NCBI RefSeq assembly: GCF_016808335.1
Contig: NC_053153.1
Location: 20,347,033-20,411,032 of the forward strand
Reading direction: 5' to 3'
Length of the DNA stretch: 64,000 nt
From: Panicum virgatum
Lineage: Eukaryota; Streptophyta; Magnoliopsida; Poales; Poaceae
This document shows, piece by piece, positions 9,597 to 57,219 of this stretch. Made by a program: the position numbers and the translations under genes. A model generated the notes under the pieces. That model had not been told where the DNA came from. It worked only from the letters and a program-made list of their open reading frames with translations, and did no database searches. Positions within the stretch are counted from its first letter, which is position 1. Each line of letters begins with the position of its first letter.

Positions 9597-9599
9597 GTT

Positions 9600-9610
9600 T
9601 GGCGCCCACC
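9600..9610 (+). promoter_or_regulatory. Primer binding site of the gypsy element
   Basis: TGGCGCCCACC lies three bases past the end of the 5' LTR, the normal place for the tRNA primer site. The tRNA was not identified. Confidence 0.6.
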
Positions 9611-9629
9611 CGTCGGTTCGATACACAAC

Positions 9630-26543: not shown

Positions 26544-26619
26544 TGCCCCCACAGTCTGATCGCCGAAGCCGCGAACGTTAAGACTGGACCTGAACTCCTG
26601 AAACAAAGAATTAGGTAAC

Positions 26620-27639: not shown

Positions 27640-27946
27640 CATGCCCCCCAGTTTCGGAGTGAAATACCCTTTTGCTCCGAAATTATTTCTCAATCATAAT
27701 TATTTCCTGCAAACGGTTGCCTCAAAAGCGCTCCATGCCGTTGTAATGCATACGGCTCATCAATCCGGAATCCCGACTCCTAAGGTGGGTCATCCTATAA
27801 ATACGTCAGTGTACTTTCCCCTTTTCTTCTCCACAACTCCTCGCATCCAGGCCATCCTTCTCTCTGTTCAAGAACTCATCCGCTCCGCCGCCTCCGAACT
27901 TCAGCACATCTTCTCCGATCACAAGAGGCTCCTCCAAATTCTGCAA

Positions 27947-30900
27947 ATGGCTTCCATCTCCGAGATTCCCCAGGTACAATAACTCCCATTCTTTTTTGCG
28001 CTGCCATTTCATTCTGTGATTCGCGACTATTCTTGGTTTCCCCCTTTTATGCCATTATTTCTAGGCCCTTAGGAACTCAATCTTCATCCCTCTGTCCGAG
28101 CAACCTAGCATGGTCTGTCTAGGTCCCATAGGTAACTCAGATCCGACTAGCATAATTAATCTGGAGACAGGCAGAATCCCCCTCAAGGCCTCAAATATGA
28201 CATCAGACTGATCTCTCGCCTTCAGATCTTGGCCAAGCGTCACTCTAGGGTGGAGAAACTGGTTTCGCAGAGTAGCAGGCAGTCACCAAGCCACTTGGGA
28301 GCAATATGATATTACCCAATGTCTCAATTTGTCTTTGTCTGAAATGGTTAGGAACGAGCCGATGCTCATATCGGCTTCCTTCTTTTGGTCTGATGCCATC
28401 AATGCCTTCTTATTTGGTCATAGTCCAATGACCCCAACCTTGCTAGATGTTATGATGCTGACCGGTCTAAATATCACTGCTTCCGACCAGTCTTTTAACT
28501 TCCATGACAATGCTTCTTTCAAAATAGAGACCAGGACCATCGGTGGGTGGAAAGCATACATTACCAAAAACATGAAAACTGGTTCTGTATCCCTAAGAGA
28601 ACACACCGCTTTCCTCAACATGTGGCTAGAAAAATTCATCTTTTGTGGCAAAACAATGGGTCCAACAAACAACACCTTGAAGATGGCTGAAACTCTAGCT
28701 AGTGGAAACCCAGTACCGCTTGGTAAACATCTTCTTGGATCAGGTTATCATCTGCTTCACCAAGTATCGGCCAAACTTAGGGCCGACCAACCAATCTCTA
28801 ATCTGGGGGGCCCATGGTGGTTCATACAATTGTGGCTGAACATGTATATGCATAAAATCATGGGTATCAGACTGTCAGAAATGTCCTTCCCATCAGAAGA
28901 CTTTGGTGAAGAGGAAAACCCTATTACTCATCGTTGCACTTCTTTCGGCGAAGCTGCTATCATGATTGCCAATGATCCCAATGTCTTTGGCAAAACTGAC
29001 TTCTTCAAATGCTTCTACAATGGCTTCACCGAAAATTCCACCATCTGGTTTGCATATCATGATGATAACAAGGAATACGAAAACCCCTTCAAGTTCAATC
29101 TTGATTCCTGGAGGGATGATGAAGAAGCCACAAACATCATGAGAGAGGTCATATCTCCAAGAATTTCTGCCTGCTAACTTCACTTCTGGAAAGAGTGCGA
29201 TCGGTTACGAGTTCTGCTACCCATCAGTTGTAGCCAGGCAACTGGGATTTGTCCAGATACCGCCTCTCCCTTACTTTGCCGATAAAGTTCAAGGAAGGAA
29301 CCCAATCGGCAAAGCTCTTGCATACAATCGGCTGAAAAGCTTGGAACTTGTCATAGATACGACACAACTAGCCGATTGGCAAGTAGCACCGCTTACCACC
29401 ATACCCTTCACACAATGGTGGTCAGAGTGGCTAGAACACCTCTTCTGTAGATCACTAAATGTCTATTGCATTGCCTTGTACGAAAATTACCAAGGTGCTG
29501 ATGATGAGGTACACATAAAAATTCCTTTCGTTGCATCTCCCTTTATATTCTGACAAATACACGCAACAAGTTGACAGTACCCCACCTCCAACGGTCAGCA
29601 GAAGCGGGTAGCCGATCAAATATTCCCCACCAACAAACTATCCTCTCATCGGCTATTATGCACCAACACTTGCTGACGTTGCTGCTGGCAAAAAATGTAA
29701 GATGACCAGCACTAAAAGAACAGCTCAGAAGACCCAAGGCTCTTCTAGTCAAGTCTTGACCATTGCATCGGCACCAAATACCGATGCTCCAACAGATGTC
29801 GTCTTTTCTCCGTTAGAAGGTAAAAGATAACTTTCAATTCCTTTTCCTGACTATAATGCACACTTTTTACTAACCATATCGTTCGGCATTTCAAAACATA
29901 GCCGCCGAAGATGCAGATGAAGAGGACGCCAAAGAGATTGCCTCTCATACATCTCCGATAGTCCAGGTATTTCACTTGTCCACTCATCACCTTCTGATAT
30001 GCATCTGACATTCGTATTTCCACACTAGATTCAACGTCTGCCTTCCAAAAGGGCCAGAACAACTGACTCACCAATTCAGGTAACACAACCATCTTCCCCT
30101 TTCTGGTTCATCTTTGCATCTGACATTGACTTCTTTATCCAGCAAACACCAAGCATTGTGCAAGAGCCATCAATCATCCCACAAGATGCCCTTCCTGACT
30201 CTAGCGTCTCAGCATTATTGCTTGCATCCTCCTATGCACCACTCACTAATGAAGTCTCTCCGATACAAGTAGGACATTTTTACTTTTCCCAGAAATCCAG
30301 AAGAACAATACTTAATTAACATTCCCTTCCTTCTTAACCAGGCACAAGACAGTCCAGACAAACAGTCTATTCTCTTTTCAACTTGGGACCATTGGTGCAG
30401 AAGATGAGGTCGTATCGTCAGCAAAATCGGCTCCATTATATGAAGAAACCAAGGCCAAACTTCAAGAAATTTTGCAGTTGTTGAACCAAGATATTGGCCA
30501 ACTGGTCCAAGATGCTGAGCCGATTCGCATTATCCTGAAGTCTCTAAAGGGCACTCTCTCTGAATCTCTTGAAGAAGCGCTACATCCTGCTGCTTATATT
30601 GAGAGCCATCAGATCTCTGTTCTCAAAGCCCAGAAGCGTCTCTCTGATCGGCTTCACCAAGAGCAAACGATCAAACAAAGAGATGACCTAAAGAATCTTG
30701 TGGAAACAACCCGCAGGAAGATTGTCTCTCTGACTCAGTCCAAGGCAGATATGGAACAATCTAAGAGACTTGGAAGCCAAACGGGAGCGCCTCATCAAAG
30801 AACTAGAACAAGTAAATCAAGAAATCGCCGATGTGGACAACAAACTATTCCAGCTTCCAACGGCTCTTCAGCAACTTGAGGCAGAGAAACAAGAACAAGC

Positions 30901-31039
30901 TCGCCACACCTATCAACTCCACAAAAGCATCAAAATAGTACCAGGTTCTACCGAGGCTGACGTTAAAGAGATCCAAGACGCTAATGACATTCGCCTCCAT
31001 GCGATTTCCGTGATCCAGAATGCCCATGGATCCTTGTAA
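27947..31039 (+). pseudogene. Plant mobile domain gene carried antisense in the nested element
   Basis: The plus-strand gene starts at ATG 27947 (MASISEIPQ, followed by a donor GTACAA). A TATA box TATAAATA at 27796-27803 lies about 150 bp upstream. The second exon (from about 28066) gives LRNSIFIPLSEQPSMVCLG, a TGA stop in RSWPSV's lead-in, then WRNWFRRVAG. The large block 28329-29177 has ASFFWSDAINAFLFGHSPMT, then PTLLDVMMLTGLNI, the signature of the plant mobile domain, and GGPWWFIQLWLNMY. Downstream pieces (29200-30400) are short with introns, and 30470-31039 encodes a coiled coil. Stops make it a pseudogene in this copy. PMD proteins in plants act in silencing and genome stability; the role of this one is unknown. 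Confidence 0.75.
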
Positions 31040-31308
31040 ACTACTACTTGTTCTTGTCGTGGTAGAAAAACTTCAATCTGATGTATTGTAAACAATGTTT
31101 AACTTACAACCCTTGTCTAGCCAATACATTTTTTTCTTTCGGATTTTATTGCCCTAAGGTCGATACAAAATTATATTGGCCATCAGTAGCCAATGTTATC
31201 AAAACACTATTGGCTTTTTCTTATATTTTTTGCTCTAAAGGCGACATCTATCATGTCGGCTAGACCAAACTCAGCCGATGCTCAGATCATCACCTTTTAC
31301 AATGCCAC

Positions 31309-32148
31309 TTAAGATTCATCTGCAAATCCAATTGCTGAGCTCGATGACATCTCATAATCGGCGACCTTCAAGAACTCTGTCTCCCATGCTTGACCAGAAA
31401 AACATTTCATTTTTTCATAGCTTTCCTCACTGGCTTCTGCCGATGCAATACTGAACGATGAATCGGTAGCAACAACTTCAACAACATCGCCGATCCATTG
31501 TATAAGGCATTGATGCATAGTAGATGATATGCAACAATTGGCATGAATCCAATCTCTCCCCAACAGCAAACTATATGATCCCTTCCCATTAATGACAAAG
31601 AAAGTAGTAGGGAGTGTCTTACTGCCGATGGTCAAATCAACACACAATGCTCCAACTACCGGAAATATGACTTCTTCAAAATCCTCGAGTATCATATCCG
31701 TTTTGGTCAGGTCTTCACTACCCTTTCCAAGCTTGCGTAGCATGGCATATGGCACTATGTTCACTGCTGCTCCTCCATCTACTAGCATCTTTGTAACAGA
31801 CTTACCATCAACAAATCCTTTCAAGAACAGAGCTTTGAGATGTTTACATTTTTCATCCTCTGGTTTCTCAAAAGTAGCCGGTATAGGTTCCAAATTTAGC
31901 TGAGCCATGGCCTCTTCCAAATCTTGCTCCTCCTCATCATCATCTGGTGCCATGAACTCACTAGGTAGCATGAAAACCATGTTGATAGGCGCAGCCGATG
32001 ATCCTGATTGTTGCCCTTCATCGGCCTTTAGCTTGACACGCCAAACTTCATATCTGACTCCTCTCCTGGGAGCCTTTCTTCTTTCCTCTTCCTCCAGTGC
32101 CTCTGTTTGACGCAGCCTCGAAACTCGTCTCTTCTGCGATCTAGTCAA
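31309..32148 (-). pseudogene. Aspartic protease region of the nested element
   Basis: An open frame of 279 residues. The core has KMLVDGGAAVNIVPYAMLRKLG and, later, SYSLLLGRDWIHAN, the two signature blocks of a retroviral-type aspartic protease (DGGA catalytic segment and LLGRDW). The N-terminal part is acidic. The frame ends at a stop and no RT follows, so pol was lost here or never acquired in this family. Confidence 0.82.
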
Positions 32149-32859
32149 ACCTCTCGGGCACCATCGAGGCCGATCAATGTTATCATGAACTGGCTCTCTT
32201 TCCGGATCTCTACGGTGTGGTTATTCATCTGGAACTTGAGTAGCAGCAGCCCGCTCAACTCGCTCATCGTCAGAAATCCTCCCTCCTGCAGGATCACGTA
32301 GCATGGTCCTGCCCCCCAGCCGATCATGTACTGAAACCCTGCCCCCCAGCTAATCATGCACAGAGATGCGTCTGCGATCATCTCTCCCTCTGATGATCAG
32401 CCCTCGAGGCCTCTGGTCGAAACATGGCTTCTTGTGCGATCGGTCTTCACGGTAGAAACCATTGCACTCTGGACAATTATCCACTATCGGCAGAGTCAAC
32501 CCTTCTTCCCAACAGTATACAAAGAAAGGACATCTCCAGTGCCCTTCATGTCGTCGTGCAGACTCTTCTCTGTACTGTCTCCTTTCTTGATCACGTTGGA
32601 ACTTGTTTAGCAACATCTGAGACGTTACCTTCTCCTTTGGCGCCGCTGAATCTTCTTTCTGTTGCGGCTCCTTACCCTTGGCTTCATCGACCGTTATCTA
32701 TGCTTTGGGATCAACAGCCCCAGATTCCTTGGCCGATTGCGATGTGAGCATCTTTGTTTGTAATGCGTTTCCCTTCTTTCCAACATCTACCATGTTTGCT
32801 GGAAACGGATGTCCATCAATCTTCATCGGCTTTTTGGGTGTCTCAAACTTGAGCCTACC

Positions 32860-34752
32860 TTACTCTATAGCCGATTGTATCTGCTGACGAAACACTTTGC
32901 ACTCATTTGTGTCATGAGATGTTGCATTGTGCCACTTGCAATACTTAATATTCTTCAACTCTTGATCTGTCGGGATCTTGTGATATGGCTTTAGCTTAAT
33001 CTGCCCCTCTGACAGCAACAGGTCGAAGATCTTGTCAGCTTTGGTAATATCAAACCCATACTTCTCGGGTTCTTTGTTACCAAAAGGACATGAGATCGGC
33101 TTTTTGTTGTTCTGAACCCATTCAACAGTTCCCACCATCTGGTCATCATCTGAATTAGAAGTTTCTGAGCAGTCAACGAAATTGACTTTCTTCTGAAAGT
33201 TGCTTCTCTTCTGCTCATACGGTCTTGCCTATCTTGTCATCCTATTGGCCATCTGACTGATGCTATAGAACTCCTGGGAAGCATACTTCTTCTTGATGTG
33301 TGGCAGGAGTCCTTGGAAGGCAACCTCTGCAAGCTGCTGATCAGATAGAACCAGACTAAAGTACTGGTTCTTAACATCTCTGAACCTCTAAATGAAGGCA
33401 GCGACCGATTCGTCATTCCTTTGCCTTAAGTTGGTCAAATCGGTCAGTTTCATTTCTTCTACACCAGAGTAGAAGAACTGTTGGAACTGTTTCTCCAGAT
33501 CGGCCCAGTATATAATGGAGTTGGCTGGTAACGTCGTGAACTATGTGAAGGCCGATTCAGACAAAGACATAGAAAACAAACACACTTTTAATGCATCTTG
33601 CTGAGCCGCTTATCCACACTGTATGATGAATCTGTTGATGTGTTCAACTGCGGAGACCTTCCCCTGTCTAGAAAACTTGGTGAAATCTGAAAGCTTGTAC
33701 TTGTGGGGCAATGGTAGTTGATCATAAGCAGCCGGATATGGAGTTCTGTACATAATTTTCTACTGCTTTGGCTTCAAACCAAACTGATCTCTCATCACCT
33801 TAGCAATCTTGGATGCCCAGTCAATCTGTTGACCACCAGCTGATGCTTCCTGTGGTGTTGGTGGAGTCATCGGTAAAGTTGCCGATGTTGGCTGGACATT
33901 CGGGGTGGTCATCGGCTGAGCAGCCGATGCGGTCCGTGTGACTTGCTGAGGGGATTGACAGGATGGCGATTGATAGAGCACCATCTCATTATCATGACTA
34001 CTCTGCGTTGTCCTCTGACTAGACTATTATTGTGCTATAGGAGGCACATTCACATGACGCACAAAACCAGTCGCAAGATCATGGAAAACCCAGGTGACTC
34101 CGTTGGCACGGGGAATCCTATTTGCCAGGACTTCCGTAGGAGACTTGGGCTGCAGTGTTATTGCCAGATTCTGTTGCTGTGGCGTCGGCCATGGGGCCGA
34201 CACGTTGCTAGGGCTTGCTGGCGAAGGTACTGACGTAGGTGTAACCGCTGGTTGTGAAGCTGGTGCGGTATCTTGAGGCTGGGTCGGCTGTGGAGCCGAC
34301 GTATTGACTTGCTGATTCATCGGTTGAGAAGCCGATGTACTTGATTGCCCTATTGGAGACGGAATCATGTATTCTGGAGGCATACCAAGTCCAGTAGTAG
34401 GATCCCATCCAGCTGGGTATCCTGACATAAATCTTCCCTGTGCATATGTAGCCATTAGCGTGGAATTGGTGTACACAGGAGGAAACTGAGTCGACGCCAC
34501 AGTACTAATCGGCTGTGCATCTATGACACCCTCATCTGCCTGAGCTTAAGGATGAATCTGTGATGTCCCAATAGCCGATCCGGTAGGAGAAAAGACCATC
34601 TGACTGGCCTGTTGGTAGGCCAGTCCTACAAAGCCTGGTGTTCCCCTATCTTGCAGCGTCTTGAGCACAGTATTGTGGACATAGTTAGCCATGATCGGAG
34701 CATGATTCACAAAAATGTGTTTGATCGCCTGAATCATCTGATGTATCATCTT
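32860..34752 (-). pseudogene. gag region of the nested element
   Basis: The minus-strand frame starts near 34749 (MIHQMIQAIKHIFVNHAPIM). It passes a Pro/Gln/Thr-rich spacer (34027-34500), then a gag core around 33240-33760 with several stops (KLSDFTKFSRQGKVSAVEHI, then LRQRNDESVAAFI). The C-terminal CKWHNATSHDTNECKVFRQQI (32870-32960) is a motif common at the end of gag in grass gypsy elements. Too many stops for a functional protein. Confidence 0.75.
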
Positions 34753-34968
34753 GTCCTCCTTCTGTGACTCATTGTAGGAAAATCATACTTTTTAATTACC
34801 TCCCCACTCCTGTTGGTGCTGTAGGATAAGAGGCAATGTCGCTCAAAACCTTCCACAACTGCCTGGAGTTCTGCTTTTTATTCTTCCTTCAGCTTATCCT
34901 TGTCGATCGGGATCTGGTTCCGCTCGGAAACCTCTGCTTTTTCTTCAGTTGACATCTTGATGTTTTTT

Positions 34969-34987
34969 GTCCCACTGGGCGTGCCAA
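34969..34987 (-). promoter_or_regulatory. Primer binding site of the nested element
   Basis: Minus-strand TTGGCACGCCCAGTGGGAC, a few bases inside the 5' LTR. It fixes the transcription strand of the element. Confidence 0.75.
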
Positions 34988-34993
34988 AAGATG

Positions 34994-36014
34994 TGTTAAC
35001 ACGAGATGATCACACACCAAGCCCAGGAGCCCCGTACGCCAAGCCCGGACTGCACTTGATTTGAACTAAGGCGTGCCAGTCAATTTGACCTGTAAATTGA
35101 TAAGGAAACAGCAAACCGTCAAATTAAAGAGTGTATCGGCTGGATTTCTGAATCACTCTTTCGCGGGGTATCGGCAAGGCCCTGCCGATACAGAAGACGA
35201 CAATAGATCGGGTATAATAAACGTGTAATAAAAGCAATCTACAAGGGATCGGCAATGAGCTGTCGATGCCGATAAGCAACTAGACGGCTAGATCTAAAGC
35301 CGACACGTGCCAGGTAACAGTGTACAAACCCACGAATGTATGGATCTGGACAAAACTAAGCTTATGATCAAATCTAATCGGCTTTACAAGGTTTATCATG
35401 ATAAACAAGGAGCTTACAGCCGATTAAATAGATCACTAAGCCGGGTAGTTTGTGAATGAATCTAAACGAGAAAACAGCGATGCACCCGAGATCAAAGCTT
35501 AGGTAAATTCGATAAATTTTGAATAGATCTGAACGAAGCCACAACAATGTGCCCGAAAGCTAAGGCTCAGATTTACTCGGTAAACGAAGATTTATCAGCA
35601 AATTAAATCGCTCGAATGTGAGGCGTACTTGATCAGTTTGAAAGAACTTGTGGAAAAGGAAAAGATGGCGAAGCCGCCGACGAGAAAGTAAATTGCGAAT
35701 AGAGTAAATTTGTGTTTGTTGAATGCGTATCAATCTTTACAATAGCCGGGGGGCTCATATTTATACCCCACGCTAACACAATCCTAGCCGATTACGGCAA
35801 AACATATTCTATCTTAAGAAACAAGAAACTATCCTAATAAACAAAATGACACCTTCCAAACCGAGACCTTCTTGTACCAAATTCGTGTATAAACGCCAAC
35901 ACACCGGAATGGTACCAAATCATGACCGATCCTTCCACGCATATTGCTATCTCCCAACCTGGTATTCCTTCCCTTCACCAATCTTTTGACACGTACCAAA
36001 AAAAGGTGTCAACA
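34994..36014 (-). repeat. 5' LTR of the nested element
   Basis: Matches 26620-27639 along its whole length. It contains the inverted repeat GTATCGGCA/TGCCGATAC at 35168-35191. Confidence 0.9.
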
Positions 36015-37599
36015 GTAACCCCTTGGTGAAGATGTCGGCGTACTGAGCAGACGTCGGGACGTGCATCACGTGGACGGCACCAATAGCAACGCGCTCTCGA
36101 ACAAAGTGGAGATCGATCTCGATGTACTTGGTGCACTGATGCAGAACGAGGTTGGAGGACATGTAGACAGCGCTGATATTATCACAATATACCAGGGAGG
36201 CTCGGCGTGAAGGCACATGAAGCTCTTGCAGGAGTTGGCGCAACCAGGTGGCCTCGGCCATGCCGTTGGCCATAGCACAGTACTCGGCTTCGGCACTGGA
36301 GCGGGAGACTGTGTTCTGACGCTTGGATGGCCAAGAAACCAGGTTGTCGCCGAGGAATACCGCATAGCCAGAGGTGGAACGCCTGGTGTCGGGGCAGCTG
36401 GCCCAATCAACGTCAGAGTACACCGTCATGTCAGAACTCCGAAATGGCTGAAGCAGAAGACCCATGTGCAACATGCCACGTACATAGCGCAGGATGCGCT
36501 TGAGGGCAGTAAGTTGCGGCTCCCGAGGATCATGCATGAAGAGGCAGACCTGCTGAATGGCATATGAGATATCCGGGCGGGTGAAGGTCAGCCACTGAAG
36601 AGCTCCTGCAAGACTGCGATAATCAGAAGGATTCTGGATGGGCGGCCCATCTGTAGGTAACTTCAGATTGATATCAATAGGAGTGGTGCACGGCTTGCAC
36701 TCAGCCATACCTGCGCGCTCCAGAAGCTCCACCATATACTGACGCTGGGAAAGGAACAAACCAGTGCCACGCCGCTGAACATGCATCCCCAGAAAGCGAT
36801 GGAGCTCACCGAGATCCTTCATAGCGGACTCAGACTGCAGTGAAGTGATGGTACGCTGAAGGAGTCCAGTAGAAGAGGCTGTGAGCACTATGTCATCGAC
36901 ATAAAGTAGCAGGTAGATCATATCATCGCCGCGCCGGAAGATGAACAGAGAGGTGTCCGACTTGGCCTCCGTAAATCCCAGGGACAAGGGGTATGCAGCA
37001 AATCGACTGTACCAGGCACGGGGCGCCTGTTTAAGTCCATAGAGAGACTTATTCAGGCGGCAGACGTGGTCAGGATGAGTTGTATCCTCGAAGCCAGCAG
37101 GCTGAGCACAGTAAACTGTCGCAGAGAGAGTCCCGTGAAGGAAGGCATTCTTCACGTCCAATTGATGAATAGTCCAGCCGCGAGAGAGTGCCAAGGAGAG
37201 CACAGTGCGGATTGTAGCTGGCTTGACAACTAGACTGAAAGTCTCGTCGAAGTCCATGCTAGGGCGCTGGGTGAAGCCGCGAAGGACCCAGCACACCTTG
37301 TACCGCTCCAGGGTACCATCAGCATGGAACTTGTGCTTGAAGATTCTCTTGCCGGTGACGACGTTGGCGCGGGGCGGCCGAGGAACAAGATCCCAAGTCT
37401 TGTTCGCCAGCAGGGCGTTGTGCTCAGCTTCCATAGCAGCCCGCCAATTTGGATCGGCAAGGGCGCTGCGGAAGGTCTTCGGAATCGGCGACAGGGGCGT
37501 GGCGTGGTAGAGCACCGGCTGGTGGAAACCAGCTTTCGCCCTGGTGGTCATGCCGTGCCGGTTCACCACGGGGGTAGTGGGCACGGCTCCCTTGGGCAA
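36015..37599 (-). pseudogene. RT-RNase H region of the copia element, 3' end displaced
   Basis: The longest intact piece. RT blocks: HQLDVKNAFLHGTL, SLYGLKQAPRAWYSRF and the intact catalytic LLLYVDDIVLTA. RNase H: SDVDWASCPDTRRSTSGYAVF and SRSSAEAEYCAMANG. The frame reaches YADIFTKGL at the nested insertion (36015), then runs into foreign LTR sequence. Its true C terminus lies 9.4 kb away at 26544-26615. No inactivating change was seen in this block apart from the insertion. Confidence 0.9.
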
Positions 37600-37712
37600 G
37601 GGAGGAGGCGGACTAGCAGGGGGGTGCTGTCATCGAACGTAGACCTGCTGGAAGGTGGACAGCGGTCGGTGAAGAGCAGCTGCGAAAACCGACTGGACGG
37701 CGGAGCCGCTGG

Positions 37713-40972: not shown

Positions 40973-41203
40973 TGTAAGCAATATGAATTGCAAGGAATGA
41001 TTAGATTGATTGATAGGGTGCAACAATGTGTGTAGATATAGGCAGGGAATCCTAGATGGTTTATAGAAACACCACCATCAGGGGACCCTGCCGCCATCTA
41101 CCAACCAGAGAAGGGGGTGGCGTCCCTAGCCAGGAAGGCTGTGCGCCGGCCACCCAAGGCCCAACAGGGCCTGCTAATCATAACCCTAATAGCCTTGCTA
41201 ACA
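40973..41203 (-). repeat. 5' LTR of the copia element
   Basis: Minus strand TGTTAGCAAGG to GCTTACA. It aligns end to end with 26313-26543. Confidence 0.9.
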
Positions 41204-41389
41204 TTTTAGTTTAGTCAATCTCGTATTATTGAGAGGTGAGTCTTAGTCTATCCCGTATGCGAGACGGACTAATCCTCTTCGTCCACGACTCAATCATGTA
41301 GATCGCTACAAATTAACGCACATGCACTAATATGTATCCGATACTTATATCATGTTTGCCCGTAGCAACGCACGGGCACAATTACCTAG

Positions 41390-41752: not shown

Positions 41753-44700
41753 TCAGAATTCAGAAGTTGCCAGGTCGCCAGATCGGAGTGAATGAGATCC
41801 ATACCCTGAGGCAGATGGTTTTTGGCACTGTGATAACCACAGATCAATGTACTTGGCGATCTGCTTTCTCACTGTATTGACTGCTGCGGGAGATGAGCAG
41901 TTTGAGGAGTCCCCTGAACAGTGCGAAACACGTGAGAATTCTCATCTGAATCGGGTGATAGATCAAATGGTTAAATGAAAAAAAGAACATAAAACTACTC
42001 TGCAAAAGAGTCAATACCAGGATCAGTACATTGTTGTGTAATATAGCAAGTTTTACAGAGCACTAGTTTTTTTTAATGTACCTTGGATTCTGAAAGGACT
42101 TTGAGGACACCCCCTCAAATCAGTGCCATGTCCGCAATTGCTGCATTTCATCAAGTACGAAGGCACTGCATGTGTTGTTCAACTTCTATTAGTACACACA
42201 AAGCAAAATACATTCAGATCTGTGTGAATATTGCTACGGAATAAAACAAAGAATGTTGGAATACTAACTGTCTTTCGATGATTTCTGCTTGGAGGCATGG
42301 CGCCATGGATCTTGAGAGCCGTTTGTAAACACAATTTTAGAAGCTGCACATATTTCATGGAGCATCAGAGGGAAAACAAGGAGATGGAACGTTGAAAGAG
42401 GCAAGCAAACACCAACTAACCAGTCCGCTACCACAGCAGAAGCATTCAACAGAAAATTAGAGGTATGTTAAGAGACAAACCAGCAATTCTTGTGCCTCCA
42501 TAATACAAGTTCGTCATGGACACATCAGGATAAACACCTTCCCCAAAAACATTTCTGCAAAGATCCAAATGGTACCTGGAGACACAGAAAGAGGAACAGG
42601 CATAAAAGTTGATACAAATATGATAATAAAATGTAAGATATAAACGTGTCCATTAGCAGATGGCAACAAAAAACTACAGAGTAATTGGTACGTGGCACTA
42701 CTTAGATCCCATGCATTATGAGCCAGACATGTAACGATAAAGTGTAAAGACAATTAGAGTTCAGAACATGTTCCTGTAGAGGTGCAAAACTTAGATAGAT
42801 AAATCACAACACATAGAAGAAAAAATGTAGGAATTATTACTTTGTGTTGATCCTTGCAGAACGAACACTATCAGTTTTGGGTGCCACTTGAAAGTAGGCA
42901 ACCTCACTGCAAACTTGGAACCACCAGAGGCGAGAACCTAATAGAAATTGTAATGTGAATAAGTACTTGCAGCTATGTATATTTGAATGCTAACACGTGA
43001 TGTCATGGTGTTTCATTCCAAGCTGATGCCAGCGGATTTTCTGATTTTTTGCTAAAGTACATATATTATATGTAAGGAGTCATTTACTAGAATCGTCAGG
43101 AGTTGTTTTCTTCAGGTACTCCTGATCATATGAAGATACTGGTGTCTCCATTTCTTTGACATAAAAGACTTTCACAATTTGAGCAAATGTGTCCTGCAAA
43201 ACCAGTACATAGAAGTTCAAAAAAGCTTGAAAGTGTCTCAATTTCTTTAACGTAATAATGTTTTACAGACTGAGAATATGTTTCCAGTAAAACCAGAACA
43301 TGAAAGTTCAGAAGCTTGGAACTCACGCGCACATTTACACAAAATTTGCTACAATAGTGAAGGGGTCGTTTAAGAAGCCTAGAACAGTACAAAAATATAA
43401 GTAAAAATAGGAGACACATACTAATTAAGTGTGAGAAATAACAAATAGATTTTCCAGAACTCTTTACGATTTAAGTCTGCAATTCGGTTGTTATCTTAAC
43501 AAATACATATGTCAGGCGTGCTTGAATGGAGAAGGTCGATATTGGTAGTGTATTTCTTTGCTCTCCCTGGGCAAGATCTTACGGATGTCTAAGAAGCCAA
43601 ACTAATAAAGAAACACATAGGTATGATTCCAGAAGTAAATGGACATGTACCACCAAGTTTTTCCCATTCTTCTTTGCATTTACTAGAGGAGTGCACACGG
43701 CATCAGGGTGCCCATATTGGAACTGCAAAATAGCACTGGCTTTCGATCAATAATCACAAAAGATGCTTTTAATCAACAGAACTATGAAAAGTTGTCATGC
43801 TCATACTGCTTCTGCTGCGGCATCTGCCAGTAAGTAGAGGAAGTCGTCATTTTTCAACTGCGTGTAAAGAAAACAAATCAAAATTGAGTTGGAAGTACAT
43901 GAAGACACTGGCTCCTGAGTCATGAGTCCTTGAGCACAAGGGATTACCGTCGGTGCCCCAAATAAGGTCTTCACCGAACGGCTGTCTGACAGAAGCTGTT
44001 GCTCAACAAGTCTAGTCGTTTCTTGAAGGGCAGCTTTGCACTCAGGGCCAGCCGACTCTCCAACCTACAAACGTAGACCTGAATCAGGTGACAGTCGACA
44101 GACCAGACAGAATTAGCAGAGAAAATTGCAATGCCCGTACTACCAACCTGCTTGTCGAAGTCGGTGTAGTTGTACACAGCACGAACCACCCCCGAGCTCG
44201 CAAGGCTCCCGCATGTCAGATGGGGGAACTTGAGCCTGAACCAGGCGCTGAGAGCGCCGGAGTAGGAGACCCCGATGACGAACCAAGGGTTGTCAAATCC
44301 CGTGCGGTTGTACCTAGCATTCAAGGATTCCTACAGAACAGAGGAAACGCCATGATTTCCAGGACAAGAAACAATGTCGGAAGCACAGAGTTCAGCCAAC
44401 GCGACAGCAGCCCAACCTGGTAGTACTGGCGGAAGACGGCGAGGTCGAACAGGGCCTGCTTCGACGACAGGAACCTCAGGTTCCCGGTGGTCAGCCGCTT
44501 GAACGGGGAGCTCTTGCCGTAGTACCGGTGCTCCGGCGTCACCACCGCCGCGCCGAACTTCTTGGCGAGTACCTGAGCAAAACGTACCAACATAAGCGCA
44601 ATCGTTCAGGTTCAGCACGCGCTGTGCGATGTGCGTGGCGGTGCCAAGAGGGCGCGACGCGACTCACGGCCAGGTAGTCGTTCGGGATGCCGCCGCAGGC

Positions 44701-46232: not shown

Positions 46233-49200
46233 TCAGATACTGGCTATGCTCCATCTGCTTCCCAGCGATGGCTCCTTGTCATGTCCTGAAAACGCAGGTA
46301 GAGAAACAATGTTTTAGGCCAAAATTGAATGGGGATTGAATTGGAGGTGGCGTAGCTAGTCACCACAGTCCTTTGATAACACAAAAGCTCAGAGGGGACA
46401 TTAGACAGAATATCGAGTATAATTCGGAACCACAATAGTTCCAGTGGCAGGACAGCCAGATAGACCAAACTAACCTTGTTCTTGACATTCTGATAACCAC
46501 AGGTCAATGTGATCGACAATCTGCTTTCTTACTTTGTTGAGAGCTTCTGGAGATGAGCACTTGGATGAATCACCTGGTGGGCATAGAATAGATAGCTCAA
46601 ATTTGGAGGTCACTTGCATATTAAACAAGCTATGGACCTAAAGTTATCTTAACCATTGATGACACAATGAAAGCAGAAATTGTATAAAGAAATCCACCCA
46701 TCCTCTGTATGCTCAAGCAAAAACTGGAATGATGGATCTACCTTCAATATTTGAAGGAGCTGTATAAAGAAATCCACCCATCCTCTGTATGCTCAAGCAA
46801 AAACTGGAATGATGGATCTACCTTCAATATTTGAAGGAGCCTGAGGGCATCCGGAGAGATCACTGCAATGTCCGCAGTTCTTGCACTCAATTAAGTACGA
46901 TGGTACTGCAGGCATAGCAAAACTTTCATAAACATAGTAATAGCATCCCGAAAAACAAAAGAAAATGTTTACCTCTTCTATATTGGATATAAAGATAGTG
47001 TGTGTATATGAAACAGGGAAATGGTGACAAAGTGACATATAGAGCTAAAAATGCTCACATTCTTCTGATGATTTCTGCTTAGAAGCATGGCGCCATGGGT
47101 CTTGAGATCCATTTGCAAAAACAATTTTAGAACCTGCAGGCAAGTGATTTATATTAGGCCAGCCGATACATTATTACAGAAGTCTCACCGTAAATCTGGA
47201 TAATTGTGCCCAGACCATTGCACAAAACTGGATATCCACGGTATCAATTAAGAGATCATAACTATCGGCAAGTTTCTAGCATGGAGAAAAAAGGGTGCTA
47301 TTAGCACTGCAGATATGAGGCTACTCAACTCTTTAGTTGCTCCTTTACTAATGTTCACTGATCCTGGCTTCACAATATCGATGTGTTAATGACACTCTGA
47401 TAGTAATATCTCATAACAATAAATAGTAGTGCAAACCTCAAAAAAACAAGTCATGCTAAATCCTCATCATTTTTTAGCTTTTCCAACTCGAATTTTCAAG
47501 GTAAACAACAACAACAACAACATAGCCTTTTTTCCCAAGCAAGTTGGGGTAGGCTAGAGATGAAACCCGAAAGAAATAAGTTCAAGGTTCAGGCACATTG
47601 ATAGCTAGTCTCCAAGCGCTCCTATCCAAAGCTATCTCTTTAGAGATATTCCAATCCTTAAGATCTCTCTTAACTGACTCATCCCACGTCAGTTTAGGTC
47701 TACCTCTACCCCTCTTTACATTATCGACCCGCTCAAGAACCCCATTACGCACCGGCGCCTCAGGAGGCCTTCGTTGGACATGTCCAAACCATCTCAGCCG
47801 ATGCTGGGTAAGTTTCTCCTCAATTGGTGCCACTCCGACCCTATCCCGAATAACTTCGTTCCGGACTCTATCCCTCTTTGTGTGCCCGCAAAACCACCGC
47901 AACATCCGCATCTCTGCTACACTCAGTTGCTGGACATGTCGCCTTTTTGTAGGCCAACATTCAGCACCGTATAGCATCGCCGGACGAATTGCTGTCCTAT
48001 AGAATTTGCCTTTTAGCTTTTGTGACACCCTCTTGTCACAAAGGATGCCAGAAGCTTGCCGCCATTTCAACCAGCCAGCTGAAATTCTATGCCTAACATC
48101 TTCATCAATGTCGCCATCCTTTTGTAGCACCGATTCTAAATACCGAAAAGTATCCTTCTGGACCACCACTTGTCCATCTAGACTAACGTCTCCCCCCTCA
48201 TGCCTAGTCGTGCTGAAATCGCACATCATGTACTCGGTCTTGGTCCTACTAAGTCTGAACACTTTCGACTCTAACGTGCGTCTCCACAGCTCTAACTTCC
48301 TATTAACTCCTGCCCTACTCTCGTCAACTAACACCACATCATCAGCAAAGAGCATACACCAAGGGATCTCATGGTAAAGGAAAGCAAAATGGCATAAAGC
48401 TAATAACTCGAGGACTGATGGTAATAGCTCAAAGGCCATACCTGCAATTCTTGTGCCTCCATAGTATAAGTTTGTCATGAATACATCAGGGTAGACTTCT
48501 TCCCCAAAAACATTTCTGCACAAGTCCAAATGGTACCTAGAAATAAAGCAACCATAAGGACGTAAACGAATATGTCTATATATGCCATCACATTGACAGA
48601 AGATTCTAGTCACTAGACTGAGACAACTTTTCCTCCAAAAAAACAAAGACAAATTTCAGCATCATAAAGTTGACAGTGGAAGTTCTTATTTTCAGATTGT
48701 GATGGTGCAGCTTTGTAGCAGGAATAAGAAGGATAAGCAAAGGATACATGATAGAGACAAAAGATGTGAATGAGTGAAGTATCTCTACTAACCTTGTGTC
48801 GATCTTTGGGGAGCGGACACTATCATTTTTGGGTGCCACCTGGAAAAATGCAACCTCACTGCAAACTTGGTACCACCACAGTCTATATGCTAAAGAAAAT
48901 CAACAGTAGAATGCATAGTTAATTAACATTAAACAATGTTTAGATGACATTTGAAAATAGCCATGCACACAGTTCCACTCTAAACTCTTAAAGTGTGATA
49001 TTTGGTAACATTGAATATCGGGTTAGCACTTACCGGATTCAGCAACAGCAGGAGTTGTGTTCTTCAAATACTGTTGATCATATGATGCTACAGATGCCCC
49101 AAATTTTCCAATGTAATAATCTTTCACGTAACTAGCAAATGTTTCCTGCATGATAACAGTTGTTAGAGCATGCTAGATTTACAAGAAAGTTAGGTAGCAA

Positions 49201-51917
49201 AATTGAAATATGAATCAAGGTCCAAAGTCCAAACGGAAGTATCATGTGCTTACTAATAAAAAATATTTTTAGAAAAGGGAAATTTCGGCAACTTAGTCAC
49301 CAGATATTGCTTCTTGAAAAATGTTACCCTTCATAATCCTGCTTTCAAATAATGGTACTACTTACCACCAAATCTGTCCCGTTCTTCTTTGCTTCAATTA
49401 GCGGGGAGCACACGACATCAGGATTACCATATTGGAACTGCAAATGATATCAGCTCTCAATACTGCAATTGCTTTCAACAAACGAGGTCAAAAATAGATG
49501 TGCATGGAGCATACCGCAATAGCAGCAGCATCTGCCAGTAAGTAGAGGAAGTCACCATCATTTTCTAACTGCAAGTGTATAAAACAAATGCATGAACCTT
49601 ATGCAGCAAATCCAAGGAGCTAAATCAGGAATAATAAAATAACCTACAAGCAGTCACTGGCAGGACACCTAGAAGTTTAAGCATGTGTTTCAGATGCATA
49701 TATGAAAACAATAAGGAAAACCTTAGAGCAAAGAGAAGTATTGGTAGGACAGGTAAGTTAGACACATCAGAAAAAGAGGTGTATTCATAGCCTTGCATGA
49801 GCATACAATTCTTCTATGTGACTGTTAACTGTCTGCCAGAAACAGCAGTATGGAAATACTCAGCTCCAACATGTTATATCATATGATGTCTCAAGAAGAA
49901 AAGAAGTGAAGGATATATTGCTATCTATATTGAAAAATGCAGACTCTTTTCAGCAGCACCACTATACGTCTCTTTTAAATTAGCATTGTCCTCTTCAAGC
50001 ATACCCAAACCGTCGACATAATATGTAACATCATTCAGTGACAGCATACATGAAATTTAAAAAGATGAAGCAATTGCAAATGAGATAGGATTGAAAAGTT
50101 GTCAAAGCTAAAGAGATACACTTCTTGTCCAGATGGATTACCTTTGGTGCTCCAAACAACTGCTTAACTGAGTTGCTGCCACCCTGAAGCTGTCCATCAA
50201 CAAGCCTTGTTACTTCTTGAAGTGCTTCCTTGCATTCAGGACCAGCAGAGTCCCCAATCTACAGAGTTGTAAATCAAATACAGAAGTAGAACTTTAGGTG
50301 CAGATTAAAGCATTGTAACTTTTAATGCATAAATCAGGCATGCTCCATCACTAACCTGTTTGTCAAAATCGGTGAAGTTGTAAACAGCAAGAACAACTCC
50401 TGAGCTTGCCAGACTTCCACATGTCAAGTGAGGAAACTTCAATCTGAACCAAGCACTGAGTGCTCCAGCGTATGACCCTCCAAAAACAAACCAAGAACTG
50501 TCTGCCCCAGAGCGATTATACCTGGCATTTAAGGTTTCCTTCAAATGAAAGAAATAAAAAGCTCAGAACAAGTGGGTGCACACATTTGGACACTGAAATA
50601 TAATATAACCAGATGTGCAGAGTGCAGACCTGATAATATTGGCGGAAAACAGCAAGATCAAATAAAGCCTGCTTTGATGACAAGAACCGTAGATTTTCTG
50701 TCGTCAGACTGTCAAAAGGAGAACTCTTTCCATAGTATCGATGCTCAGGAGAAACAATTGCAGCACCAAATTTCTTTGCCATCACCTAATTGGACAATCC
50801 ATCCACATGTATGTTAAATCACAGCTAAGCCTAGAGTATGCAGTATAGAATGTCCAATCATTTAATTCAAACATGTGTGATTGTATGCTCATCAAACTCA
50901 CAGCTAAGTAGTCATTCCCAATTCCATGGCACGAGGCTTCTCCACAGATTTTTAGGAAGATTGGCCCATTTGGAGCTCGGTAGTAGTCGAGAAATTCATA
51001 GTAACGCTGTTTGAATTGCCGATGGTCCTGCAGATAAAAAATCATATAAATTCCGGGTCCATGCCATGGATACAATAAACAATATCTGCCTTTTCTTCTG
51101 GCAAAATACCCCTGATATAATACTACCCGGTTACAATCATAGTTTCACAACATGCAGCATTGTGCCTTGAAACTGGATCAGCTGAGAAACAAGGAAGTAC
51201 AAACTAACCCCATGCTTTGCAGCAGACTAGAATCTCCAAGAAACTAATATTTATAGTGGATACAAATGCGAGATAGGTAAAAAAGGTAGACTAAAATGTA
51301 ATATGCGTAGCAAGTCCACTTGGCTCACAAATTTCACAGATCAGAGACCCCACATCTGCTTGTTAAAAAAGAAGAAAATAGGTAACATTGAGTATCAGAT
51401 CCCAACACTCATCGATTAATACATTGCTCTGTGAGAAATCATGTACATGAAGAGCCATCGGTGGTTCAACACTAAGGTTCGAGGTAACATGACGTGCACG
51501 TGAGGAAGAAAAATGGCCTGATCGAAGGCATTCAAGTATGAGCCACCAAAACTAGGAAGATTCTGGGTTTGGCATCTTCAATTTGCAAAAGAAGTACCCT
51601 AATTCAAAGCTGTACACCCAATTCCCAACAGTCCCAACAACAGAAGGCTCCTCAACATAAGTTCGAAGAGAACGCATCGATTCGCAGTGGATACACACCG
51701 TGGGGTTGAAGTGGTCGAGGGTTTGGTTCATCCACCGCTCGTCCAGCGTCAGGTAACGGCTGGCGCCGCCGAGGAAGCCCTCTCCCCCTACCCCGGCGGA
51801 CGGCGGCGGGAGCCAGAAACTGACGGACTCGCCGCCTCGCGCGAGCATGAGGAGGAGGGCGGCGGCGCCGAAGAGGTGCGCCGCGGCGGTCGCGGCGCGG
51901 GCGGAGCCGAACCCCAT
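46233..51917 (-). CDS. S28 serine carboxypeptidase B (EDA2-like)
   Basis: Fourteen exons: 51699-51917, 50902-51027, 50630-50785, 50356-50538, 50142-50258, 49515-49568, 49366-49437, 49034-49145, 48793-48889, 48442-48536, 47059-47133, 46822-46905, 46475-46573, 46233-46285. They total 1542 nt, 513 residues plus stop. ATG 51917 is chosen over the upstream in-frame ATG at 51974 because [17 protein letters not shown] plus ALLLMLA makes a good signal peptide. Catalytic residues by family pattern: Ser189 in [13 protein letters not shown], Asp422 in NGSQDPW, His448 in NCGH. Junctions match gene A through exon 13. The last exon is uncertain: without it the frame stops at once inside the intron (GG-T TAG), giving a slightly shorter protein. 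Intron 10 holds a LINE. Confidence 0.93.
46681..46840. repeat. Perfect 80-bp tandem duplication over an exon end
   Basis: 46681-46760 and 46761-46840 are identical. On the minus strand the unit covers the last 19 bases of exon 12 of gene B, its donor (AAG|GTAGAT) and the start of the intron. The intron therefore holds a second copy of the exon end and donor. Confidence 0.92.
47503..48400 (-). mobile_element. RTE-clade LINE, 5'-truncated, in intron 10 of gene B
   Basis: Minus-strand translation shows [20 protein letters not shown], the FADD catalytic box of reverse transcriptase. RTE-type C-terminal blocks follow ([55 protein letters not shown]). The frame ends at 47582, and the element ends in (TTG)n, the usual RTE tail. 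The left part of RT and all of the endonuclease are missing. The RT frame is still open, so the insertion is fairly young. Confidence 0.85.
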
Positions 51918-52420: not shown

Positions 52421-52429
52421 GTTTGGGGT

Positions 52430-52690
52430 GCGTTTTTTTATTTTTTATATTTTTCAAAATCATTTTTTACAGAAATATATTTTCAGTTTCATAATTTACA
52501 GTTTTGTACCCCTACCGCCCGGCAGCGGGGCGGCCGGTACCGGGCGGTAGGGACCTGAATGTAAATAAAATTTATTTTTATTCGTATTTTGGGCCCTGGG
52601 GGAGGCTGCCGGGCGACCGGTACCCGCCGCCCGGTGGCGTGGCGGTAGACCTACCCGCCGCCCGGCAGGGGGCGGCCCCCTCTACATAAA
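52430..52690 (+). repeat. Left TIR of the PMD-MULE
   Basis: Pairs with 56945-57210 on the opposite strand. It contains an internal 13-bp inverted repeat CCCTACCGCCCGG (52510-52522) with CCGGGCGGTAGGG (52540-52552). Confidence 0.85.
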
Positions 52691-53203
52691 AGGCTGAGCT
52701 CCCCCCTCCCTCCTCATTTGCTTCCCATGACATCCAGAGAGGGGGAGGGAGAGAGGAGGGGTGAGGGAGGGAGTTGTAGCGGCGAAGCCCTGCCGGATTT
52801 TGAATCCGAACCGCAGGTAATAAATATTTCTCAACTTTCTTATTCTAAATTTTTTGTATGTTTAATTCTATAATTAGTGTATGCAGCAGCAATGATATTT
52901 TAGTGATTTAGGTATTGTTTTTATTATAATTTATGTAGAATTAGGATTAGTTTTTAGAAAACCCATTTAGGTTTATTAATTAGTTGTTTAATGCGAGAAT
53001 TTTTTTAAAAATGCTCAAAAATTGTAGAAAATGCTAGAAAAGTATATGAAAAATTCAAATAAATTGTAGAAAATACAGAAAAATTATAGAAAATATTATT
53101 TATAAAAATTTATTGTACAAAAATTGTAGGAAATGCTAGAAAAGTTTATGAAAATTTCAAATAAATTGTATAAAATGCAGAAAACTTATATTTTTGTGTT
53201 AGG

Positions 53204-56200
53204 TATGGCCGAAGATACGCCAGCTCTACTTGACCGAGTCATAGACTCGTCGCACCGGTCCTTCGTTGCAGTGGTTCAGCGCGTGAAACTTAACGTGCTG
53301 CGTCCACGTCCACCAGCGGAGTTGATTCCTGTTGATCCACGATGGGTGCCCAGGTGATATGTCGTCGGATTATGTTTCTGAGAATACGTTTATTTCGTAT
53401 ACGTTTCCTACATAATGTACTTACCTTTGATCGTTCTACTTTTCTGGTTGAGTGAGGCTGGTCTTCTTACTATAGGCCGTCTTGCTGAGAGTGGTTTGGA
53501 AAAGTTGGACAGGTCCCTACTTGCGGCTCTGGTTGATAGATGGAGGCCTGAGACACATACCTTCCACCTCCCTTGTGGGGAGATGTCACCGACCCTACAG
53601 GACGTTGCGATGCTGCTGGGTCTTCCTATCAGTGGGGATGCCGTAAGGCCTCGCGTTGTGCCGTCTACGTGGTTGGATGATCTAGAAGAGCGTTTTGCAA
53701 ATATTGACATCGCGATTGATGTAGAGGAGCACCCAAAAGCAACAGGGCCTGCCAAGTCATGGATTCTGCAGTTCCAGGTACATACCTTGTTTTGTTATGA
53801 GTAATGTTAGAGTTATGCTTTTGACTAGTGCAATTATGGTTTTATTTTATAATTGATCTTGTACTCATAAATGTTCATCTTTTCTATGCAGTCCGACAAT
53901 TTGGCATATGATGCTGATGAGGATAGCGTCACTCGATCCCTTGAGGCATACCTGTTGTGGTTGTTTGGATACATAATGTTTAACAACTCACACGGGGCCT
54001 ATGTGGATAGGGTGCTTGTGTCTTACGCACAGGAGATCGCAGAGGCAGCTGTGGAGGAAATGCCTCAATACAGTTGGGGTTTAGCGGTACTTGCAGCCAC
54101 GTACCGTGGCCTCTGCAAGGCATCGGTGCAAAATAAGCACAATGCAATTCTTGCAGGATGTCCGATTCTGCTACAGCTTTGGTCGTACGAGAGGATAGCA
54201 ATTGGACGTTGTAGCGAAAATGGCCTCTCATGCCATATTTCAATATAATATTTTGGTGATTGATATAGACAACACAACACTTGGGCTAATATGATTGTTA
54301 AGATGACCATTCTCAGGCTTTTAGGTTCAAATGATGACAAAGAGAAGATAGGCGTAGCTAGGCCCGAAGGGCCGCCCCTATGGTGGTTCCGCCCCTACGT
54401 CTGTGCATTGACTTGGAGCACGTCTGGGAGTTTTTGTAACACCAGTTGAATCGACGCCAGGAAAGTTGAATACGTCGGTGCAATGAACTCAGCAGCTGAG
54501 GCAAAATCTATACACCGGATGAACCGACGCTAGATATTGGTGAACGTCAGTGCAGTTGTCTAGAGAGTTAGTTTTTTAGCAACTACACTCACTGGTTAAA
54601 CCGACGCTGCATCGGTTGATTACATCGGTCGATTGAGGTAGTCGTTGAAGTATAACGGCTAGTTGGAAAATGCACTCACCGGTTAAACTGGTGATGACAA
54701 AAACAGGAGCATCGGTTTAACCGGTGATAGCGCTTTTTGTCAGCTTTTTTTCCAACGGCTAGTTTGGGGTGTGTGGGCTATATATATGCCACCCCACGGC
54801 TCATTTGAGGTTGCTGGAGACCAAGGAAGTATACAAGAGCCAAAGATCATCTCCAACCACCTTAGAGCTTCTTTATACATCATATAGGCTTAAGCACACT
54901 TGTGAGAGTGCTTAGTGCTTGTAATAAGGATTAGTTCTTGCGAGAGCTCCCTTGAGAGAAGTCTTGCTGCGGCAAGCAATACTTGTGATCCATCGTGTGA
55001 CCCTCCGACTTAGTGTGGAGTGGCAATGACACTCTGTGTGGGGGAAGAGGAGACCCCCTCCTTGGTGGAGAAGCTCCGTAGTGGATTTCGGCTGGGTGAC
55101 CGAGAGAGACGGTGGCGGTGCACGAGACTCCGTGTCTTGTGGGCACTTGCCTTTGCTTGCCGGCATCGCCTTGGTGGCGTAGTGAAAGACGGTGATCGGA
55201 AGAGCCTCGGTGTCGCGTGGACGTAGGCGTTTGTGCCGAACCACGTTACATGACCGTGTCTACTCGGGAGTTTGCATCCCTCTTGCACTTACCTCTTTAC
55301 TTACCATATTACGTTTCCGCATTTATTTTACCTTACGTGCCTTCACTTTCCTAGTTAGTTTGTTTAGAATTGGCTATAAGTTGCAAGTTTTTTGGGGTAA
55401 GTAGAGAGTAGCAAAGATAAACCTTAGTCATAACTAGCTTGTATAGGACGTGTAAGGTTTATCTTATGCAAGTAGTTTGAGCCCTAGATTAAAAAGCGAT
55501 TAGCGACCCTATTCACCCCTCCCCCTCTAGGGTCGGACACCTCGGTGATCCTTACATGCTGACATGCATCCAGAGCCGCTTGATATATGCTGATATGCAT
55601 CCAGAGCCGCATGTTGCGACCCCACATGATGGCTATGCACGACATAGGGATGAGGCATTAGCTGGGGCGATGAGTCAAAGTTATCATCGCTTTTCAAATA
55701 CTTTGGATTAGAGTGTTAATGTCTTTCTTTTTTTTGCATGCAGTTTGAAATGTGCAGGTTGATGGACGTAGATGCCAGGGCAAATTTGATGAGGATTCGA
55801 GCGGGATCTATGATGGATAGGAATGAGCAAGAGTCGGCTTGGACCCGAGTTTCACAAAGAGTCCATTCCATGCTTGAAGCCTTTGGTAGCCGGACATCGT
55901 ACGAGGACTCCTACGGTTCGTCTCAAGCCTCGACCTCGTTTTCTTGCGGTCCCACACAACAGCAGCCTTCCCCAGCACCTTATTGGTCTCAGCAGCATTA
56001 TCCAGATACGTGAGGATACTTACTGACTTTCTACTTTGATAACAACAATTAATTCTCAGTCCATACAGGTGATGGACACCCACCTTATCAATCTCACGGA
56101 GGGACCCAGTTTAGTACCATGGCACCAGCTGCAGGGATGTCATTTCAACTAACACAGGCACCACCACGACATTTCGGTAAACATATAGTCAATATCTTAA

Positions 56201-56600
56201 TTTAATTAATTTTGGTATGAAATCTAATTCCTTTTGCATTTACATATAGGATCACAACACTTATATGATGCGGGACCTTCTTCGTATTACCCTATGGCGA
56301 CAGCAGAAGGAACGCAAGGTAAATATCTAATCTGTAACCCGAATTTATCATGTTCTTCTTATTTCTATGAATATTTTAAATAATTTGAACGTTTTACAGG
56401 ATCGCACCACCAGCTTCCTGATATGGGTCCTTCTTCGTATTCACCTCTTCGTATTCACCACCAACAGGTACGTATGATGAATATGTACCCAAATAGATGA
56501 CTTATAAGACGATGATTAAAATATCTTAATTGCTACTGCATAGGGGCCACACAAGATACCTTGGAGGCGAACTTCGAAGACTAGAGTCGGTTATTTTCTA
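53204..56600 (+). pseudogene. MAIN-like plant mobile domain gene in the MULE
   Basis: Exon 1 from ATG 53204 gives MAEDTPALLDRVIDSSHRS and ends after DPRWVPR with a GTGATA donor. Exon 2 (about 53455-53777) has RSLLAALVDRWRPETHTFHL, then PCGEMSPTLQDVAMLLGLPI, the plant mobile domain signature as in MAIN and MAIN-LIKE proteins. Exon 3 (53892 to about 54209) has RSLEAYLLWLFGYIMFNNSHG and YSWGLAVLAATYRGLC. The gene then breaks at an LTR insertion. Tail pieces follow at 55557-55710 and 55742-56008 (FEMCRLMDVDARANLMRIRAG) and in small Ser/Tyr/Pro-rich exons up to about 56585. A middle part of the domain is missing, so it cannot encode a full protein. It may be expressed from the TIR, which is inference. 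Confidence 0.82.
54210..55556 (+). mobile_element. Solo LTR inside the PMD gene, probably copia (SIRE/Maximus-like)
   Basis: The block starts TGTAGCG and soon reads ATAATATTTTGGTGATTGAT. It carries repeated ACCGGTTAA / CCGACGC phrases and ends CACCCCTCCCCCTCTAGG then GATCCTTACA. This layout is common in large copia LTRs of grasses. There is no primer site, coding region or second LTR, and no convincing target duplication. Sequence on either side does not rejoin the PMD frame, so a deletion accompanied or followed the insertion. Confidence 0.6.
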
Positions 56601-56944
56601 CACCTAACCAGCAGGCCGATCCTACCTTCCAGAAACCTGTGGCCACCGGACGTCCAGGTAGAGACGTAGGGCCTCCAGACCGACACACATACCCTACAGA
56701 CCACGTCCACGCACAGCGTAAAAGAGGTGCTTCTAGTTGTTTCTGTATTTTTGTTATGAATATGTCGTCATGTTATACTTATTTCGTTATCATGCATCAC
56801 CTATTTCGTTCTCAGTTGCGTATGTGTATGAATTGCTAAGTTATACTTTTCATATTCATCTACTTTACTAACGGTTTTTATTTCTATCCAAAATATTTAA
56901 AACCACATCTAATGTCATACTGCCGCACTGACGGTCAAGGTTAA

Positions 56945-57210
56945 ACCTGCAGAAGGGGGGCGAGTAGGCCTACCGCCCCGCCACTGGGCGGCGGGTACCT
57001 ACCGCCCGGCTGCCGGGTGGCAGGCTCCCCCAAGGGTCAAAATACAATTAAAAATAAATTTTATTTACATTAAGGTCCCTACCGCCCGGCATGAGGGCGG
57101 TAGGGGGCCGGCCGCCCCGCAGCCGGACTGTAGGGTCTAAATCTGTAAATTATGAAACCGAAAATATATTTTTGTAAAAAACGATTTTGAAAAATATAAA
57201 AAAAAAACGC
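56945..57210 (-). repeat. Right TIR of the PMD-MULE
   Basis: The inverse of the left TIR, with the same internal palindrome in slightly different form (CCCTACCGCCC and GGGCGGTAGGG near 57077-57104). Confidence 0.85.
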
Positions 57211-57219
57211 GTTTGGGGT

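Follow-up and report, generated by a model that had tools for sequence, protein, structure and literature searches.

A transposase-less Mutator-like element of Panicum virgatum with a broken plant mobile domain gene, and a predicted fold likeness of that domain to VANC21

The plant mobile domain (PMD) was first described in a rice Mutator-like element (MULE). According to the same source (PMC5418596), PMD-A lies in Gypsy elements, and PMD-C is found both as host genes and within MULEs of grasses and Amborella, where it is fused to transposase. Most members of the MULE-Monocots, MDR, MUDRAVI2 and MUDR groups carry a PMD, as does MuDR-9_OS (PMC6446971, Table 1), and half of the VANDAL group have a PMD and/or a domain of unknown function (DUF) (PMC6446971). 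Among retroelements, 57% of Ogre elements carry one (PMC6317226); in Gypsy consensuses it is the most frequent extra domain, and MULEs are reported to have acquired theirs independently (PMC9289625). The PMD is itself termed a domain of unknown function (PMC7156037, PMC8616336). An anti-silencing use of transposon-borne PMDs is a speculation by the authors of PMC5418596, and this counter-silencing idea is repeated in PMC8616336. The kind of element treated here, the occurrence of PMDs in both transposon classes and the anti-silencing idea are, in other words, already known. In this paper, we describe a PMD-bearing MULE at positions 52421-57219 of a 64,000-nt stretch of Panicum virgatum DNA (NC_053153.1, assembly GCF_016808335.1, 20,347,033-20,411,032, forward strand; hereafter the window) and the likeness of its domain, in a predicted structure, to a solved DNA-bound protein.

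The element is a transposase-less MULE that duplicated 9 bp on insertion and held a multi-exon PMD gene between long terminal inverted repeats (TIRs); the copy was later broken by an insert resembling a long terminal repeat (LTR). Its parts, some of them placed by alignment to protein relatives (P numbers), are the following, where TSD stands for target site duplication.

52421-52429: left TSD copy GTTTGGGGT, 9 bp, abutting the left TIR
52430-52669 (plus strand): left TIR, with a GC-rich core and CTACCGCCC at 52512 (plus) and 52542 (minus)
52685-52691 (plus): CATAAAA, similar to a TATA box, at the left TIR's inner end, a putative promoter
53205-53353 (plus): PMD exon 1, 149 nt, from the P0001 alignment
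53354-53446 (plus): intron 1, with an acceptor implied by P0001 of TG, not AG
53447-53777 (plus): PMD exon 2, 331 nt, PMD profile positions 10-82
53892-54209 (plus): PMD exon 3, truncated at the insert, profile positions 105-192
54210-55556: insert of 1,347 bp with TG...CA ends and mismatched flanks (GACGT / TGCTG), read as a solo LTR
55577-55672 (plus): remnant of the PMD gene past the insert, matching P0002 residues 436-467 and like parts of P0006, P0008 and P0009
55753-55974 (plus): remnant of the C-terminal tail, matching P0002 residues 470-540 at 34% identity
56946-57210 (minus): right TIR, with CTACCGCCC at 56970, 56999 and 57079 (plus) and 57095 (minus)
57211-57219: right TSD copy GTTTGGGGT, 9 bp, abutting the right TIR

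The perfect 9-bp duplication reported in the initial annotation is there, each copy directly adjoining an inverted repeat. Chance agreement of this kind is rare: 9 of 2,000,000 random pairs of 9-mers drawn from the window were identical, as were the 9-mers at 19 of 59,201 window positions when set at the exact TSD spacing. The inverted repeats, given earlier as 260 bp, measure 240 and 265 bp; their alignment has 235 paired columns, of which 209 are identical, and another 35 columns with gaps. Aligning the outer 270 bp gives a score of 155.5, against a maximum of 25.5 among 500 dinucleotide shuffles. Long TIRs and a perfect duplication within the 8-11 bp range are those of a MULE. As had been claimed, there is no transposase: Pfam finds no such domain in any of the 21 open reading frames (ORFs) of at least 70 codons that overlap the element, and matches to other families in the element's ORFs are weak and all under their cut-offs. 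Since a transposase marks the autonomous members only, the element is non-autonomous at most. We regard this anatomy as very nearly certain.

The gene within it has introns, again in agreement with the initial annotation. Two ORFs match PMD (PF10536) above its curated cut-off of 34.9 bits: 53382-53801 (E-value 3e-20, 73.2 bits, profile positions 10-82 of 347) and 53871-54245 (2.1e-15, 57.2 bits, positions 105-192); profile positions beyond 192 go unmatched by the MULE's ORFs in the Pfam scan. Joined together, exons 1 to 3 align without gaps to P0001 (414 amino acids) over 266 residues, 91.7% of them identical. P0001 is probably a transcript, because its 1,647-base contig reads across both introns. 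The TG acceptor of intron 1 was considered as a second lesion and dropped, because 6 nt further downstream there is an AG in frame, by way of which splicing may survive. Named relatives, among the 120 listed, are annotated as MAIN-LIKE 1-like or as PP7 long form homolog.

What the initial annotation overlooked here is the damage. The insert at 54210-55556 occupies the place of a large part of the PMD: the alignments of all six relatives that reach this point (P0001, P0002, P0006, P0008, P0009 and P0011) end at 54209, and in P0002, P0006, P0008 and P0009 they pick up again at 55577-55580 after skipping 157, 167, 184 and 174 residues, respectively. The insertion was thus accompanied by the loss of some 157-184 codons. 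The lost segment is present in P0001 and P0038, and the gene as it stands is a pseudogene because it holds the insert and lacks a part that these relatives keep. Judged by sequence, close relatives exist whose frame is unbroken through the segment, P0001 among them. The insert would be a solo LTR, produced when two LTRs recombined and the DNA between them was deleted, which would explain both its mismatched flanks and the missing DNA. No second copy of it was found within the window. A 31-bp tandem duplication (55553-55613) sits exactly at its 3' end.

The search for relatives, in which scoring was limited to the 7,993 candidates with the most words in common with the MULE PMD, found 398, of which 120 are listed. 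Among those listed, the named ones are nearly all from grasses, and one Paspalum notatum genome supplies 23 of the 120. A tree was built from the window copy plus 63 proteins chosen by hand from 240, with no Arabidopsis MAIN or MAIL1 among them. In it, the copy groups with P0001 and P0038 (support 100/99) and then with P0003, P0004 and P0012; the 21-row group around it also takes in one Panicum virgatum protein and, of the 18 Paspalum proteins in the tree, 14. Panicum virgatum P0042, a 92% match, is the same gene with its frame shifted from residue 113 on. As expected for a plant gene, P0001 has no matching stretch in viral contigs, and eight pattern-matching stretches in prokaryote genomes yielded no relatives by tblastn. 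Among 60 PMD-C-like relatives, 33 also match DUF7745 (PF24924; best 8.9e-7, P0093 and P0087 included); DUF7745 is probably part of the PMD superfamily, since the matches cover the same stretch.

Set beside the described systems, the locus resembles the PMD-bearing plant MULEs, that is, the groups of PMC6446971 and the MULE-captured PMD-C genes of PMC5418596: it shares with them a 9-bp duplication, long TIRs, a PMD gene in between and a grass host. It differs in having no transposase, whereas those groups are autonomous (PMC6446971) or fuse PMD to transposase (PMC5418596), and in being broken by an LTR-like insert. Like Pack-MULEs, it is a non-autonomous MULE with an intron-containing gene and no transposase; Pack-MULEs, however, carry host gene fragments, whereas this element carried a whole multi-exon gene, of either host or element origin by the tree, and its probable leader before it was damaged. 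With MAIN and MAIL1 of Arabidopsis, which are PMD-C host proteins, it shares the domain (PF10536), and some of its relatives are annotated MAIN-LIKE 1-like; these host genes promote silencing, whereas the PMD gene of the window lies inside a transposon.

A further likeness is to VANC21, the anti-silencing factor of the Arabidopsis MULE VANDAL21. The predicted structure of an intact relative's PMD matches the fold of the solved, DNA-bound VANC21 domain at 9% identity, and on this model we consider it likely that PMD and VANC21 have a fold in common. At the level of sequence there is no significant match between PMD and the VANC21 chain: a PMD profile of 60 rows run by hmmsearch against Protein Data Bank (PDB) chains returned nothing to E 1 and nothing to E 10, and single PMD queries against PDB chains gave chance rows only. 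DUF1985 is matched by one of the 60 PMD relatives (E 0.0013, under the curated cut-off) and by none of the window's own PMD ORFs in the Pfam scan. VANC21 acts on silencing (PMC8756742, PMC6419827) and binds a 9-bp motif that recurs at many places in the non-coding parts of VANDAL21 (PMC6419827). Both proteins are accessory to a MULE, and in both elements a short motif is repeated in the non-coding arms; unlike VANC21, the MULE copy in the window is broken. A link between the PMD and VANC21 folds was not found in searches of one open-access library. If the model is right, the match would give the anti-silencing idea new, indirect support.

The candidate motif is CTACCGCCC. It has six exact sites, two in the left arm and four in the right, in both orientations, and none elsewhere in the window. 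The commonest 9-mer occurs three times in the left arm (at least three in 2 of 500 shuffles) and four times in the right (at least four in 0 of 500). With up to one mismatch, there are seven sites in the 4,781 bp of the element and nine in the other 59,219 bp.

Taken together, we suggest that in intact elements the PMD protein would serve the MULE as an accessory factor with sequence-specific DNA binding. It would be made from a promoter near the TIR, would bind short motifs that recur in the non-coding arms of the element (with CTACCGCCC as the candidate) and, by analogy with VANC21 on VANDAL21, would counter host silencing there, while an autonomous relative provided transposase in trans. 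The present copy can no longer make the protein and moves at most as a passive substrate. As a whole, a PMD-bearing MULE with a VANC21-like counter-silencing factor, later broken, is our best explanation, held tentatively and with slightly more doubt than confidence. For the function of the PMD itself, DNA-binding anti-silencing is a model-based possibility that we hold more loosely still. Each arm is a copy of the other, and sites for transposase would be expected in them too, so CTACCGCCC is a candidate target and nothing firmer. The DNA binding that a VANC21-like fold suggests would serve a helper of transposition equally well.

Among the other readings, the one that survives best is that the PMD is a passenger, a host gene captured by the MULE through transduplication of the Pack-MULE kind, never useful to the element and now decaying. 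Capture of host PMD-C genes by MULEs has been proposed (PMC5418596), and the absent transposase (0 of 21 ORFs), the broken gene and the frameshift at residue 113 of P0042 all fit it. P0001, on the other hand, has kept its frame through the very segment lost from the window copy, and a domain carried by the majority of members in several plant MULE groups (PMC6446971, Table 1) looks more like a resident gene than a chance capture. The 23 listed relatives from one Paspalum notatum genome, with 14 of the 18 in the tree forming one group beside the window's own, are also what a self-multiplying family would be expected to leave. We think a mere passenger possible though unlikely. Less likely again is that the PMD helps transposition by binding the TIRs or partnering the transposase, with no role in silencing. 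Most described PMDs of grass and Amborella MULEs are fused to transposase (PMC5418596), and the repeated motif does lie in the TIRs; yet the closest match found among solved folds, VANC21, is a protein that acts on silencing (PMC8756742, PMC6419827), and Gypsy elements carry PMDs with no need of such a transposase helper (PMC6317226).

As for the order of events, the insert could have come independently into an element from which the PMD segment was already gone. The mismatched flanks do argue against plain insertion into an intact exon; however, the nearest relatives, P0001 and P0038, both continue through the lost segment, and the alignment break falls on the first base of the insert in six relatives, which makes a separate, earlier loss improbable. 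Finally, although grasses have host PMD genes (PMC5418596), an ordinary PMD gene between chance inverted repeats is refuted by the anatomy: the two copies of the 9-bp duplication directly border the TIRs, whose alignment scores six times as high as the best of 500 shuffles.

The window holds a second PMD, in an LTR retrotransposon, as the initial annotation had noticed.

26620-36014 (minus): LTR retrotransposon, the second PMD carrier, with LTRs at 26620-27639 and 34994-36014 that are 94.5% identical
28212-29514 (plus): PMD of another subtype, antisense to the protease ORF, with a frame change at about 29161-29167
31312-32220 (minus): protease-like ORF, gag-asp_proteas, E 2.2e-5, just under the cut-off

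The element has paired LTRs, a 5-bp duplication (GTAAC) on both outer sides and a PMD ORF within (28212-29174, plus strand, Pfam E 1.1e-18), and this PMD lies about 23-24 kb from the MULE, close to the 25 kb stated. With its PMD ORF antisense to the protease ORF, the neighbour resembles the Ogre/Tat-type Gypsy elements that carry PMDs as extra ORFs (PMC6317226). Unlike them, it has no reverse transcriptase domain in its 15 scanned ORFs, and it is therefore probably non-autonomous. Its PMD, too, is damaged, which had gone unremarked: all four relatives tested (P0121, P0127, P0131 and P0138, from 120 listed) require the frame change at 29161-29167. Coiled-coil ORFs downstream of it (30316-31036, plus; one with a sub-threshold DUF1409 match, 2.3e-6) are perhaps a second antisense gene of the LTR element. 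The PMD-bearing LTR element lies, together with a Copia reverse transcriptase (RVT_2, 35950-37629, E 3e-61), between direct repeats at 26313-26544 and 40973-41204 (89.7% identity), and is apparently nested within a Copia element.

From the two carriers the initial annotation had argued that the same host domain, carried by both transposon classes, supports the idea that PMD gives mobile DNA an advantage, perhaps by blocking silencing. That two PMD subtypes occur in both classes within the window holds. BLASTP between the two gives no significant match, and hhalign relates their families at 92% probability (E 5.4e-7, 159 columns, 19% identity). Because they are related at the profile level only, they are, by this comparison, old separate lineages and not one host domain taken up twice here. 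Nor does the window support an advantage: both copies are broken, so neither can act now. PMDs are frequent in several plant MULE groups and in Ogre, which makes both classes within 64 kb of grass DNA unsurprising, and their co-occurrence carries little weight.

The rest of the window contains the following.

435-5965 (minus): host gene region with GYF, SWIB and Plus-3 domains, best named relatives in Urochloa, Digitaria and Zea (zinc finger CCCH domain protein); for the gene at 435-2417 the best protein matches are 89% and 86%, with Urochloa at 77%
9063-20896: Gypsy element with gag, reverse transcriptase/RNase H and integrase ORFs at 9885-15373 and direct repeats at 9063-9596 and 20363-20896 (94.9% identity)
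21127-22474: 227-bp inverted repeats, 90% identical and about 0.9 kb apart, a possible further TIR element
41818-43878 and 46478-49589: regions between which there are diverged direct repeats
46681-46840: perfect 80-bp tandem duplication

The element as such adds another PMD-bearing MULE to those described, and the point of interest is the fold match. In its widest form, the idea would be that PMD and the DNA-binding region of VANC make up one superfamily; that PMDs serve plant MULEs, and in a more distant way Gypsy elements, as sequence-specific DNA-binding counter-silencing factors aimed at their own terminal motif arrays, such as the CTACCGCCC array; and that the host silencing proteins MAIN and MAIL1 are a tamed branch of this family with the sign reversed. 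We put this forward as a conjecture that is, on balance, unlikely to hold in full. If the fold match holds, it would provide a molecular basis for the published anti-silencing guess and make it testable through DNA binding, the motif and the removal of methylation, and it would offer a clue to the way in which MAIN and MAIL1 arrive at their targets.

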